Source of the DNA: Streptomyces sp. CCM_MD2014
GTDB taxonomy: Bacteria; Actinomycetota; Actinomycetes; Streptomycetales; Streptomycetaceae
Direction of reading: 5' to 3'
Assembly (NCBI RefSeq): GCF_000772045.1
Contig: NZ_CP009754.1
Span: 7,874,001 to 7,938,000, forward strand
DNA: 64,000 nucleotides
Position numbers and translations under genes: made by a program. This document shows, one piece after another, positions 20,316 through 34,347 of the stretch. The notes below the pieces were generated by a model that saw nothing but the letters and a program-made list of their open reading frames with translations, searched no databases and was not told the origin of the DNA. Within the stretch, counting starts at the first letter, position 1; every line of letters begins with the position of its first letter.

Positions 20316-20807
20316 TCACAGACTGGTGAGAATCTGGGGCGCCAAGTGCTTGATCATGGTGTTGGTCCAGCGCATCTGGCGCAGTGTCCGCGGGTGGCAG
20401 GAGGAGGCGAGTGCCAGCAGCCCGCTGTCCTTCGACGCCTGGGCGGCCTGGGCCAGCATCTCCCAGTGCAGTGAGTTCTCCGCCGCGGCGACGTGCAGCT
20501 CCCGCAGGTCGCGCAGGAGCAGCAGGCCGGGTTCCGGCCGGTGGACGACCGCCTCGGACGCCTTCTCGCGCAGCGTCGCGAGGACGCCGTCCGAGGAGGG
20601 GTCCGGCGGGTCGCCCAGCTTCACGCCGTGCTCGGCGCCGGCCTCGGCGAGTCGCCGCACGTGCTCGCGGGACCAGAGGGCGAGGTCGGTGGCGACGTGG
20701 TGGACCTCGTGCTCGGTGCGGTGCCGCTCGGCGACGGTCACCAGGTGGTGTGCCAGGTGCCGTTCGCCGCGGTGCAGTGTGCGCAGGGTCAGGGTGATGC
20801 CGTTCAC
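20316..20807 (-). CDS. Ferritin-like four-helix protein coupled to the molybdopterin oxidoreductase gene
   Basis: A 163-residue helical protein that starts with GTG 20807 inside the stop of the oxidoreductase gene (GTGA overlap), so the two are translationally coupled. It looks like a four-helix bundle rich in His and Glu: LHRGERHLAHHLVTVAERHRTEHEVHHVATDLALWSREHV, then LLLLRDLRELHVAAAENSLHWEMLAQAAQ. That resembles ferritin- or hemerythrin-like proteins, but I cannot place metal ligands securely. The coupling suggests it is a partner of the molybdoenzyme, perhaps an electron-transfer or assembly protein. That role is inference only. Confidence 0.75.
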   Translation of the reverse strand: MNGITLTLRTLHRGERHLAHHLVTVAERHRTEHEVHHVATDLALWSREHVRRLAEAGAEHGVKLGDPPDPSSDGVLATLREKASEAVVHRPEPGLLLLRDLRELHVAAAENSLHWEMLAQAAQASKDSGLLALASSCHPRTLRQMRWTNTMIKHLAPQILTSL

Positions 20808-23296
20808 CGGGCGCCTTCCTCGTGGCCGTGCGGGAACTGGGTGGGTTCCTGCCGCATGGTGTGCGCCGCCGGTCCGCCCGAGGTGGGCGGGACGACGCCC
20901 GCGGCGGCCGGGGCCGACGCGGTGGTGGTCGGTGCGGGCGAGGGCCGGCCGTCCCCGCGTTCCAGGAGGGTGAGCGCGGCCGCGGCCGTCTTGAACAGCG
21001 GCTGCTTGGAGACGGGGTCCCAGTCGGTGACGGTCGTCTCGTTCGCGGCCCGCCCGGGAGTGTCCGGGCCGGGGCCCGACCCGCCCCCGGTGTCCCAGTA
21101 GCCGTAGTGGAACGGCACGAACAGCAGTCCCGCGCGGATGCCGGTCACCCGCAGCCGGCCGCGCAGGGCGCCGCGCCTGCTGCCGACCTCCACCAGATCG
21201 CCCTCGCCGAGGCCGAGCCGTTCCGCGTCGCCGGTGGAGATCTCCACCCACACGTCGGGAGCGGCGTCGTTGAGCTGGGGGGCGCGTCCGGTCTTGGTAC
21301 GGGTGTGGAAGTGGTAGATCGTCCGGCCCGTCGTGAGCTGGAACGGGTACTGCTCGTCCGGCTCCTCGTGCGGCGGCCGGTAGGCGGCCGCCTTCAGCAT
21401 CGCCCTGCCGTCCGGGTTCAGCGAGCGGTACTCCACGGCCTCCTGCGACGCGCCGGTCTCCAGGTCCTTGCCGTAGCTCTCGCACACGTCGGGGTGGGCC
21501 CAGGAGATGCCGTCCGTGTAGAGGCGCGCGGTGCCCCGCGGGTTCCGCTCGTCGCAGGGCCACTGGATGCCGCTGGTGTCGCGCAGCAGGGCGTAGGACA
21601 GGCCCGTGTAGTCGCAGGGGCGGCCCGCGCTGCACCGCTTCCACGCCTCGAACGCCGACTCGGGGCCGTCCCAGGTGATCAGCGGACCGCCGTCCTTGTC
21701 CCGGAAGTCCATGCGCCGCGCGTAGTCCAGGAAGATGTCCAGGTCGGGCCTGGCCTCGCCGGGCGGTTCCACGGCCTTCTCGGAGAGGTGCACGGTGCGG
21801 TCGGCGTTGGTGAGCGCGCCGGTCTTCTCGCCCCACGTGGCGGCGGGCAGCACCACGTCGGCCAGTTGTGCCGTCTCCGTCAGGTAGAGGTCCTGGACGA
21901 CCGTGAACAGCCGGTCCTGCGACAGGATCGAGCGCATGCGGGACAGCTCGGGCATCGAGACGGCGGGATTGGTGCCGCTGATCCACAGCATCCGCAGCGA
22001 GCCCTGCTCGGCGTAGCGGAAGATCTGCATGGCGTGGGTCGGCGGCGCGAAGTGCGGGACGGTCTCGGGCTCGACGTTCCACACCCGTGCGAGGTCGGCG
22101 ACATGGGCGTCGTTCTGCCAGTTGCGAAAGCCCGGCAGATCGCCGTTGGCGCCGCACTCGCGGGTGTTCTGGGCGGTGGGCTGGCCGTTCATCTGGAGCA
22201 GTCCGGCACCCGGGCGGCCCAGCATGCCGCGGATCAGGTGCAGGTTGTTGACCTGGACGGCGGCGGCGGTGGCCTGGTGGGACTGGTAGACGCCCTGGAG
22301 GACGGTGGAGACCAGCTGGTCGGTGGTGCCGACGAGTTCGGCCGCCTCCTCGATCCGGGCGGCCGGGACGTCACAGATCTCCGCGGCCCACCGGGGTGTG
22401 CAGTCGGCGACGCGGGCGGCCAGTTCGTCGAAGCCGACGGTGTGCGCGGCGATGAAGTCGCGGTCGATCCACCCGTGCCGGATCGTCTCGTGCAGCAGCG
22501 CGTTCAGGAGGGCGACGTTGGTGCCGCTGCGCGGCGCGAGGTGGACGGCGGCGCGTTCGGCGACGCGGGTGGGGCGCGGGTCCACGCACAGCAGGCGCGG
22601 CGGGTCGGCCCCCTCGAAGCGGTCGAGGAGCCGCATCCACTGCACGGGCTGGGTCTCGGCGATGTTGTGGCCGAACAGCGCGATCACGTCGGCGTGGTCG
22701 AAGTCGTCGTAGCTGCCGGGCTGCCCGTCGCAGCCGAAGGTCTCCTTGAGAGCCTCCGCGGCCGTCGAGGTGCACAGCCGGGTGTTGCCGTCGAGGTGGT
22801 TGGTGCCGATGCCGGCCCGGGCCAGGACCGTCAGCGTGTAGTACTCCTCCAGGAACAGCTGACCGGTGGTGTAGAAGCCGATCGAGCCCGGCCCGCGCTC
22901 CTCCAGCAGTGCGCGCGAGCGGGCGGCCACCAGGTCCATCGCCGTGTCCCAGTCCGTCTCCACCAGCTGTCCGTTCCGGCGCACCAGCGGCCGGGTCAGC
23001 CGGTCCCGGGAGGCGTTCGCCTGCCAGCCGAACAGGTCCTTCGGGCCGAGCCGCCCCCGGTTGACCCGGTCCACGTCCCGGCCCCGCACTCCGACCATCC
23101 GGCCGTCGGCCACCGCGATGTCCATGGCGTCGCCGTCCGAGTGCAGGATCGACGCGGCCTGCACCCATCGCTGCACCGCCCCGGGCTCCACCCCGTCCGC
23201 GAGGAACGTGTCCACCCGGGCCGGCCACGTCTCGTGCCGTCCGTAGGGCACCCTGGGACCCCACGGGTGCGCGATCCGGTCCGCCGCATCCTCCAT
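20804..23296 (-). CDS. Molybdopterin oxidoreductase (nitrate reductase/formate dehydrogenase-like) lacking the N-terminal Fe-S cysteines
   Basis: An 830-residue cytosolic MopB-family enzyme with no Tat signal. It follows the assimilatory nitrate reductase/formate dehydrogenase plan: VNRGRLGPKDLFGW at 78-91, TRLCTSTAAEALKETFG with Cys175 as likely Mo ligand, QMNGQPTAQNTRECG, WISGTNPAVSMPEL, LPAATWGEKTGALTNADRTVHLSEKAV, and a molybdopterin-dinucleotide-binding end TTGRTIYHFHTRTKTGR. Relatives carry a Cys-rich 4Fe-4S motif near residue 50. Here that stretch is AASILHSDGDAMDIAV and no Cys occurs before residue 175. The enzyme thus appears to lack the cluster. It is coupled to the ferritin-like gene and divergent from the GNAT gene. 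The substrate is unknown. Confidence 0.88.
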   Translation of the reverse strand: MEDAADRIAHPWGPRVPYGRHETWPARVDTFLADGVEPGAVQRWVQAASILHSDGDAMDIAVADGRMVGVRGRDVDRVNRGRLGPKDLFGWQANASRDRLTRPLVRRNGQLVETDWDTAMDLVAARSRALLEERGPGSIGFYTTGQLFLEEYYTLTVLARAGIGTNHLDGNTRLCTSTAAEALKETFGCDGQPGSYDDFDHADVIALFGHNIAETQPVQWMRLLDRFEGADPPRLLCVDPRPTRVAERAAVHLAPRSGTNVALLNALLHETIRHGWIDRDFIAAHTVGFDELAARVADCTPRWAAEICDVPAARIEEAAELVGTTDQLVSTVLQGVYQSHQATAAAVQVNNLHLIRGMLGRPGAGLLQMNGQPTAQNTRECGANGDLPGFRNWQNDAHVADLARVWNVEPETVPHFAPPTHAMQIFRYAEQGSLRMLWISGTNPAVSMPELSRMRSILSQDRLFTVVQDLYLTETAQLADVVLPAATWGEKTGALTNADRTVHLSEKAVEPPGEARPDLDIFLDYARRMDFRDKDGGPLITWDGPESAFEAWKRCSAGRPCDYTGLSYALLRDTSGIQWPCDERNPRGTARLYTDGISWAHPDVCESYGKDLETGASQEAVEYRSLNPDGRAMLKAAAYRPPHEEPDEQYPFQLTTGRTIYHFHTRTKTGRAPQLNDAAPDVWVEISTGDAERLGLGEGDLVEVGSRRGALRGRLRVTGIRAGLLFVPFHYGYWDTGGGSGPGPDTPGRAANETTVTDWDPVSKQPLFKTAAAALTLLERGDGRPSPAPTTTASAPAAAGVVPPTSGGPAAHTMRQEPTQFPHGHEEGAR

Positions 23297-23392
23297 CGCC
23301 GGCCTCCCGCCAACTTCCGTCCGCGTTCCGTCGTTGCGTCACAGTGCGCGGCGGCGGGTACCCGGGGACGGCCGACCGAAGCGAACCACTTG

Positions 23393-23406
23393 TGGGAGCG
23401 CTCCCA
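23393..23406. promoter_or_regulatory. CebR-type LacI-family operator
   Basis: TGGGAGCGCTCCCA is an exact 14-bp palindrome identical to the known CebR box of Streptomyces cellulose/cellobiose genes. It lies 18 nt before the GNAT start and directly upstream of a CAGGAT -10-like element at 23413-23418, a position where a bound repressor would block RNA polymerase. Confidence 0.8.
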
Positions 23407-23424
23407 AGCGGGCAGGATGCTGCG

Positions 23425-24069
23425 GTGACAGCGACTGCCTCCGTACGCCCCTACCGCGCCGCCGACGCCCCGGCCCTCGACGACATCTGCATCCGGACCG
23501 CGCACAACGGCCGGGACAGCCGGCCCGTGTACGCCGACCCCTCGGTGCTCCCCGCCATCTTCGCCGCCCCCTACGTCCACCTCGACCCGGACCTGGCCTT
23601 CGTGCTGGACGACGGGGAGGGCCGCGCCGTCGGCTACATCCTCGGCACGGCGGACACCGCGCGCTTCGCCGAGGAGTTCCGGACCAAGTGGCTGCCGCGC
23701 GTGGCGGACCGCTACCCGGCGCCGCAGGGCCCGCCCGAAACCCGCACCCCGGACGAGGTCATGGCCGGACTGCTGCACGACCCCGAACGCATGATCGTCC
23801 CCGAGCTGGCCGCGTACCCGGCCCACCTGCACATCGACCTGCTCCCCGACTGGCAGGGGCAGGGCCACGGCCGGACCCTGATGCGGACGCTCTGGCGCGC
23901 CCTGCGCGAGCGCGGCGTCCCCGCCGTCCACCTCGTCATGGCCACGGCCAACACACCGGCCAGGGCCTTCTACGACCGGCTGGGCTTCCACGAGATCGCC
24001 GCGGCCGGGCTCGACCCGGCGGACGTCACCTGCCTGGGGCGTACGACGCAGGACGCGGCACGGACCTGA
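23425..24069 (+). CDS. GNAT-family N-acetyltransferase
   Basis: A 214-residue acetyl-CoA-dependent acyltransferase, with VRPYRAADAPALDDICIRT at the N-terminus. The acetyl-CoA pyrophosphate loop is DWQGQGHGRTLM, and ANTPARAFYDRLGFHEIA is the conserved late helix and strand. FVLDDGEGRAVGYILG forms the central strands. Its size and the RTAHNGRD start recall the O-GlcNAcase-associated acetyltransferases. GTG 23425 lies 6 nt after CAGGAT, so the transcript may be leaderless. The CebR-type box upstream suggests control by a LacI-family sugar sensor. The substrate is unknown. Confidence 0.87.
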   Translation: MTATASVRPYRAADAPALDDICIRTAHNGRDSRPVYADPSVLPAIFAAPYVHLDPDLAFVLDDGEGRAVGYILGTADTARFAEEFRTKWLPRVADRYPAPQGPPETRTPDEVMAGLLHDPERMIVPELAAYPAHLHIDLLPDWQGQGHGRTLMRTLWRALRERGVPAVHLVMATANTPARAFYDRLGFHEIAAAGLDPADVTCLGRTTQDAART

Positions 24070-33095: not shown

Positions 33096-34268
33096 TCAGG
33101 CCGTGTGGAGGGTCAGGCCGTAGCGGTTCAGGATCTCGTTGACCGGCTGGAACCAGGTCTCCCCGCCGCCGGAGCAGTTGCCCCAGCCGCCCGAGGTGAC
33201 GCCCTGCGCCTGGTCACCGCTGATGAAGGAGCCGCCGGAGTCGCCGGGCTCGGCGCACACACTGGTCTTGGTCAGCTGATGCACCACCGAGCCGTCGCTG
33301 TAGTTGACCGTCTCGTTGTGGGCGAGCACGGTGCCGCAGTGCCAGTGCGTGGTGGAGCCGGAGCGGCAGATCGAGGCGCCCACCGGTGCCACGTTCGAAC
33401 CGCGCACGAGCTGGTCGGAGACCGTGCCCCAGCCGAGCACGACCGGCACCGTCCACCAGCCGCTGCCCACGCTGACCCACGCGTAGTCGTTGTCGGGGAA
33501 GGACGAGCCCTGGAACGTGCCGATGTACGAGCGGTCCCAGCCGCTGACACCGGCGCCGGCCCGGCCGCAGTGCCCGGCGGTGACGAACCCGCCGTGCACC
33601 GAGAAGCCGATGGAGCAGCGGACGTTGCCGGTGTAGTACGGGTCGCCGCCGACGGTGCCCGCGGCGAAGGTCCGCGGGGCCGACGGCACCGAGCGCACCG
33701 TGACCGGCCCCGCCTCGCGGGCCTGCTTCAGGAAGTCCTGGACATCGTTGTCAGCGCGGTCGCTCGCGACCACGTCGACGACCACGGTGTTGGCGCTCTG
33801 GTCCACGCGCCAGCTGCTGACGCCCGCGGGAGCGTCGAGGCGGTCGACGCGTGCCTTGACCGCGTCCAGCTGCCGCGCGCTGTGCTCGACGGTGCGCACC
33901 TGCGCGCCGGTGGCGCGTACCGCGCGCAGGGTCGAGGGTGCCGCGTCCGAGGTGACGGCCACGGTCAGTTTCCCGGCGTCGGCGTCGAACCACGAACCGC
34001 CGAACGCCTTTCCGGCGGCCCGGCGTGCCACCGGTTCCAGTGCGGTGGCGTCGCGTTCGGCGGCGAGCCGTTGCTCGGCCTCGGCCCGGGTGAGGCCGAA
34101 GTCGTGCCGCATGGCCTCCAGGAGGCCGGCGGAGGCGGGCTGCTCGTTGGCGGAGGGGGAGGCGGAGGGGGCGTCGGCCGCCGAGGCCGGCAGGGTGCCG
34201 ACCGCGGTGAGGCTGCCGAGCACGAGGAGGCCGGCCAGGCCGAGGTGCCTGAGTCTGCTGCGTCTCAC
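33096..34268 (-). CDS. Secreted S1 serine protease (streptogrisin/alpha-lytic type) with propeptide
   Basis: A prepro-protease of about 390 residues. The signal peptide reads LRHLGLAGLLVLGSLTAVGTLPASAADA. An alpha-lytic protease prodomain follows (about 40-190, with FGLTRAEAEQRLAAERDA), then the mature chymotrypsin-like domain from about 205. The triad is visible: His in FVTAGHCG (near 231), Asp in FPDNDYAWV (near 257) and Ser in AEPGDSGGSF (near 342). Three disulfide-type Cys pairs are present. No carbohydrate-binding domain is attached. GTG 34268 fits a GAAGGG site 8 nt upstream. A LacI-type palindrome lies 66 nt upstream. Confidence 0.92.
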   Translation of the reverse strand: MRRSRLRHLGLAGLLVLGSLTAVGTLPASAADAPSASPSANEQPASAGLLEAMRHDFGLTRAEAEQRLAAERDATALEPVARRAAGKAFGGSWFDADAGKLTVAVTSDAAPSTLRAVRATGAQVRTVEHSARQLDAVKARVDRLDAPAGVSSWRVDQSANTVVVDVVASDRADNDVQDFLKQAREAGPVTVRSVPSAPRTFAAGTVGGDPYYTGNVRCSIGFSVHGGFVTAGHCGRAGAGVSGWDRSYIGTFQGSSFPDNDYAWVSVGSGWWTVPVVLGWGTVSDQLVRGSNVAPVGASICRSGSTTHWHCGTVLAHNETVNYSDGSVVHQLTKTSVCAEPGDSGGSFISGDQAQGVTSGGWGNCSGGGETWFQPVNEILNRYGLTLHTA

Positions 34269-34333: not shown

Positions 34334-34347
34334 TGAGAGCGCTCTCA
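34334..34347. promoter_or_regulatory. LacI-family-type palindrome upstream of the protease
   Basis: TGAGAGCGCTCTCA is an exact 14-bp palindrome with the central AGCGCT of LacI-family boxes in actinomycetes. It is 66 nt upstream of the protease GTG and 192 nt upstream of the divergent SRPBCC gene, so either could be its target; the protease is nearer. Confidence 0.6.

Follow-up and report, generated by a model that had tools for sequence, protein, structure and literature searches.

A conserved CebR-type operator within the core promoter of an SsAT-like acetyltransferase gene in Streptomyces

The acetyltransferase gene and its promoter

Within the window, a 64-kb (64,000-nt) stretch of the Streptomyces sp. 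CCM_MD2014 genome, the genes for a GNAT acetyltransferase and a molybdopterin oxidoreductase diverge from a common intergenic gap of 128 nt, an arrangement that the first-pass annotation had described correctly (Table 1). Judged by its sequence, the GNAT is a member of the SsAT/O-GlcNAcase-HAT-like GNAT family. Its best PDB match, 4bmh, extends over residues 3-212, followed by 3zj0 and the C-terminal domains of O-GlcNAcases. The CoA loop, Q144-G-Q-G-H-G149, retains the Q-x-x-G-x-G pattern intact and matches that of SsAT, and the candidate base His136, together with Asp138, matches SsAT His187 and Asp189; 204-207 of 207 homologues share Q144, G147, G149, His136 and Asp138. SsAT binds acetyl-CoA with a Kd of 20 uM and has a pocket that suits small polar molecules (PMC3919268), and by analogy with this 4BMH structure paper the acceptor of the GNAT would be a small polar amine. 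A more specific assignment as a glucosamine N-acetyltransferase, modeled on the GNAT region of the fungal RmNag (PMC4680927), was not adopted, no fungal Nag being found among the listed PDB matches.

Table 1. Features of the GNAT locus and genes associated with the other perfect CebR boxes of the genome
Feature	Position in the window	Strand	Basis and remarks
GNAT acetyltransferase, 214 aa, SsAT/OGA-HAT-like	23425..24069	+	Pfam PF00583 (Acetyltransf_1); PDB 4bmh, E=4e-92
GNAT start codon GTG	23425..23427	+
CebR-type operator TGGGAGCGCTCCCA, perfect 14-bp palindrome	23393..23406	.	Sequence; conserved in orthologues
-35 hexamer TTGTGG	23390..23395	+	Overlaps the first 3 bases of the operator; TTG conservation
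-10 hexamer CAGGAT	23413..23418	+	Conservation; 17-nt spacing from the -35; transcription predicted to start at the GTG or beside it
Divergent molybdopterin oxidoreductase	20804..23296	-	Pfam PF00384/PF01568; neighbor, probably not controlled by the box
Genes behind 9 other perfect boxes (elsewhere in the genome): GH5-fn3, AA10, GH9, GH6/GH48 (divergent), CBM2-Cip1, AA10, cebE/cebR, GH12-CBM2, GH5-CBM2			Pfam

The gap contains the perfect palindrome that the first-pass annotation had pointed out as a CebR operator, and its description of a CAGGAT element behind this box, separated from the GTG by 6 nt, also agrees with the sequence. To these can be added a -35 element, absent from that annotation. 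The operator occupies the 17-nt spacer between TTGTGG and CAGGAT and is thereby an integral part of the core promoter. An E. coli-type promoter scan of this region returned 0 sites, and the -35/-10 assignment consequently rests on conservation: the TTG directly 5' of the box is 95-98% conserved among 133 boxed orthologues, and several orthologues that have lost the box still retain the -10 (L035, L039-L042). With transcription expected to begin some 7 nt downstream of the -10, the messenger would start at the GTG, and the GNAT transcript, given the 6 nt between the -10 and the GTG, is probably leaderless. A longer open reading frame from the in-frame GTG at 23344, in which the box would be coding, was rejected, since upstream of 23425 the orthologues share only the promoter; their alignment from about position 23425 onward places the start there and the box upstream of the gene.

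CebR boxes in the genome

The window contains no further perfect copy of TGGGAGCGCTCCCA, and its sole other match with at most two mismatches is TGAGAGCGCTCTCA at 34334. DNA of 74% G+C yields G+C-rich palindromes by chance, and when two mismatches were allowed, two or more matches appeared in 13/100 shuffled versions of the window, so that a fortuitous palindrome devoid of any regulatory role had to be considered. The whole genome (8,274,043 nt, or 8.27 Mb, in one contig) contains 11 perfect copies against 0.11 expected from its base composition. As a control, the reversed pattern has 0 perfect copies in the genome, and with one mismatch allowed it has 3 matches against 13 for the true box. 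These counts, combined with the conservation of the box at a fixed position in orthologues, rule out coincidence, to which practically no weight can be given.

The first-pass annotation had called for a search of the genome for other CebR boxes and for cebR itself, and both were found, the latter in a cebE/cebR/bglC locus furnished with boxes. Pfam scans of the adjacent open reading frames place 9/10 of the other perfect boxes in front of textbook CebR targets, namely cellulases, AA10 LPMOs and cebE/cebR (Table 1). At the cebE/cebR site, a solute-binding protein gene adjoins a LacI repressor gene, and the GH12-CBM2 gene adjoins a second LacI gene. The GH1 bglC gene of CCM_MD2014 carries TGGAAGCGCTCCCA, the variant that is listed for bglC of S. 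scabies (PMC5332605), and the CebR encoded in this genome has the cebE/bglC synteny as well as the other boxes. The GNAT and a DoxX-family gene are the only non-cellulolytic genes with a perfect box ahead of them. The DoxX-family box (L008 1501-1514, genome positions 6180715-6180728) lies roughly 165 nt ahead of its gene and is perfect in 9/9 of the close relatives where this region could be located. CebR normally controls genes beyond the ceb operon as well (PMC5332605, PMC4898821), and the GNAT would be unusual as a CebR target only by the kind of gene that it is.

Conservation of the box before GNAT orthologues

In a genus-wide draw of 247 genomes, about 98 of which have GNAT orthologues, the best upstream 14-mer was perfect in 43/90 loci, and was within one mismatch of the box in 55/90 and within two in 65/90. 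Pooling this draw with GTDB species and order loci gave 182 non-redundant GNAT loci. The first-pass annotation had named absence of the box upstream of GNAT orthologues as grounds for abandoning its proposal; in this pooled set a box with at most one mismatch is found in 112/182. With up to three mismatches, a box is present at -75..-20 in 133/182, nearly always within the -35/-10 spacer. Among these 133 orthologues, the columns of the box are 82-100% conserved, and most upstream flanking columns 33-57%. Over all GNAT loci, boxes with at most one mismatch fall at the GNAT promoter in 130 cases, 600-1100 nt downstream in 23, and elsewhere in 1. Outside the GNAT promoter such boxes are scarcely found other than in front of an AA10 LPMO gene that lies behind the GNAT in one clade. 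The status of the box changes 9 times on the GNAT tree compared to a mean of 29 after shuffling. The proposal of CebR-type control over an acetyltransferase gene located outside the ceb operon is thereby supported, with the box conserved genus-wide and most other boxes of the genome preceding cellulases.

A box with 1-2 mismatches occurs in two genomes of the sister genus and is absent from the 11 GNAT loci of a more distant family. Because some orthologues lack the box, CebR-type control of the GNAT is not universal; the genomes of these box-less orthologues mostly keep 2-15 other boxes. S. europaeiscabiei, which is related to the well-studied S. scabiei, has kept the -10 of the GNAT but only a degenerate box; speculatively, this may explain why CebR studies there missed the gene. 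The median number of CebR boxes is 8 in genomes with a GNAT and 3 in those without, a difference confounded by phylogeny, and one in which the box of the GNAT itself is counted. In one clade (L034, L038, L046, L047 and L050), the GNAT has neither the box nor an evident promoter of its own, having moved behind a small cysteine-containing open reading frame and, at loci whose context was read, a gene for an MFS transporter.

Neighborhood of the gene

The 128-nt gap is common to the GNAT and the molybdoenzyme gene, which remain adjacent in the nearest relatives, and the first-pass annotation had proposed that the molybdoenzyme could also respond. Against the idea that the operator serves this gene, alone or jointly with the GNAT, many loci that lack the molybdoenzyme in their neighborhood have the box at its fixed place in the GNAT promoter; furthermore, the box is upstream of the molybdoenzyme start by about 97 nt, behind any likely promoter for that gene. 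GNAT orthologues in unrelated neighborhoods retain the box, and this persistence amid varying neighbors indicates that the box belongs to the GNAT. Control of the molybdoenzyme is thus unsupported and very improbable, and this divergent gene is probably a bystander.

In a different clade, the gene after the GNAT encodes an AA10 LPMO homologous to the AA10 whose gene bears a box in CCM_MD2014; in several members this LPMO gene has a box of its own. This adjacency, restricted to a single group of species, provides independent evidence tying the GNAT to the attack on cellulose. Proximity to cellulase genes was rejected as the cause of the box, since only 1/20 wider loci contained another boxed regulon gene (GH5).

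The probable repressor at the box

The closest solved structure to the CebR of CCM_MD2014 is 5ysz, that of T. fusca CelR. The genome encodes more than 30 LacI-family homologues, among them a CebR paralogue, here called LacI2 (genome positions 7490968-7491975), whose gene adjoins that of the GH12 cellulase and lies beside three CebR-like boxes. LacI2 and CebR are identical at 189/341 positions and have the recognition stretch AGVGRGTVSRV in common, and LacI2 may be a second regulator of CebR operators, sharing the GNAT box with CebR or replacing it there. These similarities would also fit a GNAT box that is read mainly by LacI2 or by another LacI-family sugar repressor, with an inducer that may differ from cellobiose, as would the finding that some GNAT orthologues (L078, L117, L219) carry TGAGAGCGCTCTCA, the element preceding beta-1,3-glucanases in CCM_MD2014. 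However, the GNAT site is the perfect CebR consensus, of which CebR orthologues are the characterized binders (PMC5332605, PMC4898821), and another paralogue has a different palindrome alongside, making a main reader other than CebR unlikely, though less so than control of the molybdoenzyme. The gene for that other paralogue, a CebR-like LacI protein, adjoins TGGGAACGTGCCCA and TGGGCACGTTCCCA (L255 2703-2737), which resemble the TGGGA(A/T)CG(A/T)TCCCA site reported in Acidothermus (PMC3377646).

The TGAGAGCGCTCTCA element of the window (34334-34347) lies upstream of a gene on the minus strand, ending at 33096, for a secreted protease with an alpha-lytic-protease prodomain. Perfect copies number 4 in the genome, the other 3 preceding beta-1,3-glucanases (two of GH64, one GH16-CBM6). 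Of 30 protease loci, that of the window included, 29 retain the element (25 perfect, 4 with one mismatch), and the sole locus without it is a contig-end fragment missing the upstream region. This distribution suggests that TGAGAGCGCTCTCA marks a regulon for attack on fungal walls that includes the protease.

A model for the GNAT in cellulose utilization

The box is most plausibly a working operator of CebR, or of the paralogue beside the GH12 gene, making the GNAT a direct and long-conserved member of the cellulose-utilization regulon, a reading that on the present sequence comparisons can be given a probability of roughly 0.86. We infer that CebR binds this site and that cellobiose induces the gene. 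CebR, a LacI-family repressor sensing cello-oligosaccharides, would block RNA polymerase by sitting on the -35/-10 spacer, a case of promoter occlusion, until cellobiose or cellotriose imported by CebEFG releases it from the GNAT promoter. The probably leaderless mRNA made upon release would yield a cytosolic, acetyl-CoA-dependent N-acetyltransferase of the SsAT/OGA-HAT-like kind. As a CebR-type switch has been kept at one spot across much of the genus, the enzyme is very probably active while the bacteria grow on cellulose.

The GNAT goes unmentioned in the open papers and main texts on CebR regulons that were searched; Book et al. give their predicted CebR genes in a supplementary table (PMC4898821), where an earlier listing of the GNAT is possible. 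The CebR table for S. scabies contains no GNAT and covers only cellulose-use and toxin genes (PMC5332605). The GNAT very likely belongs to the CebR regulon as a genuine and conserved member that has apparently escaped discussion; its mechanism would be ordinary, the kind of gene unusual.

The CebR regulon sets the timing of cellulose degradation in Streptomyces and, in plant pathogens, of thaxtomin production. Conserved membership of an enzyme other than a hydrolase or a transporter points to a metabolic step, so far unrecognized, that goes with cellulose use. More tentatively, and with the odds rather against it, the OGA-HAT-like acetyltransferase could be a dedicated part of the Streptomyces cellulose program, in which cello-oligosaccharides switch on the N-acetylation of a specific small amine, for instance an amino sugar or some inhibitory amine encountered on plant biomass, or the acetylation of a protein required during cellulose use. 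If so, cellulose sensing would be linked to acetylation, and the orphan SsAT family would gain a physiological role. Growth on cellobiose offers a concrete condition under which to seek the substrate of SsAT, whose family has a solved structure and homology to a human O-GlcNAcase domain.

Comparison with known systems

SsAT of Streptomyces sviceus (PDB 4BMH; PMC3919268) resembles the GNAT over its whole length, including the pattern of the CoA loop and the His and Asp residues. Sequence homology to the GNAT is also detectable in the C-terminal pseudo-HAT domain of human O-GlcNAcase and in OgAT of O. granulosus (3ZJ0). The loop of the human domain is atypical (PMC3919268), whereas the bacterial GNAT is free-standing and has an intact CoA-binding loop. 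On the side of the operator, a palindrome equal to TGAGAGCGCTCTCA precedes GH16 endo-1,3-beta-glucanases in Catenulispora (PMC3377646). It is a close variant of the CebR box, and is present in the CCM_MD2014 genome and window as well, but serves other genes, which in CCM_MD2014 are those for beta-1,3-glucanases and the secreted protease. The nearest parallel is the CebR (CelR) regulon of Streptomyces and other actinobacteria. The 14-bp operator is the same, boxes likewise occur in CCM_MD2014 at cebE/cebR, bglC, cellulases and LPMOs, and release of the repressor by cello-oligosaccharides is to be expected here too. In contrast to the known targets of this regulon, which are cellulase, transporter, regulator and thaxtomin genes, the gene controlled here would be that of a cytosolic acetyltransferase, whose probably leaderless gene has the operator between its -35 and its -10.
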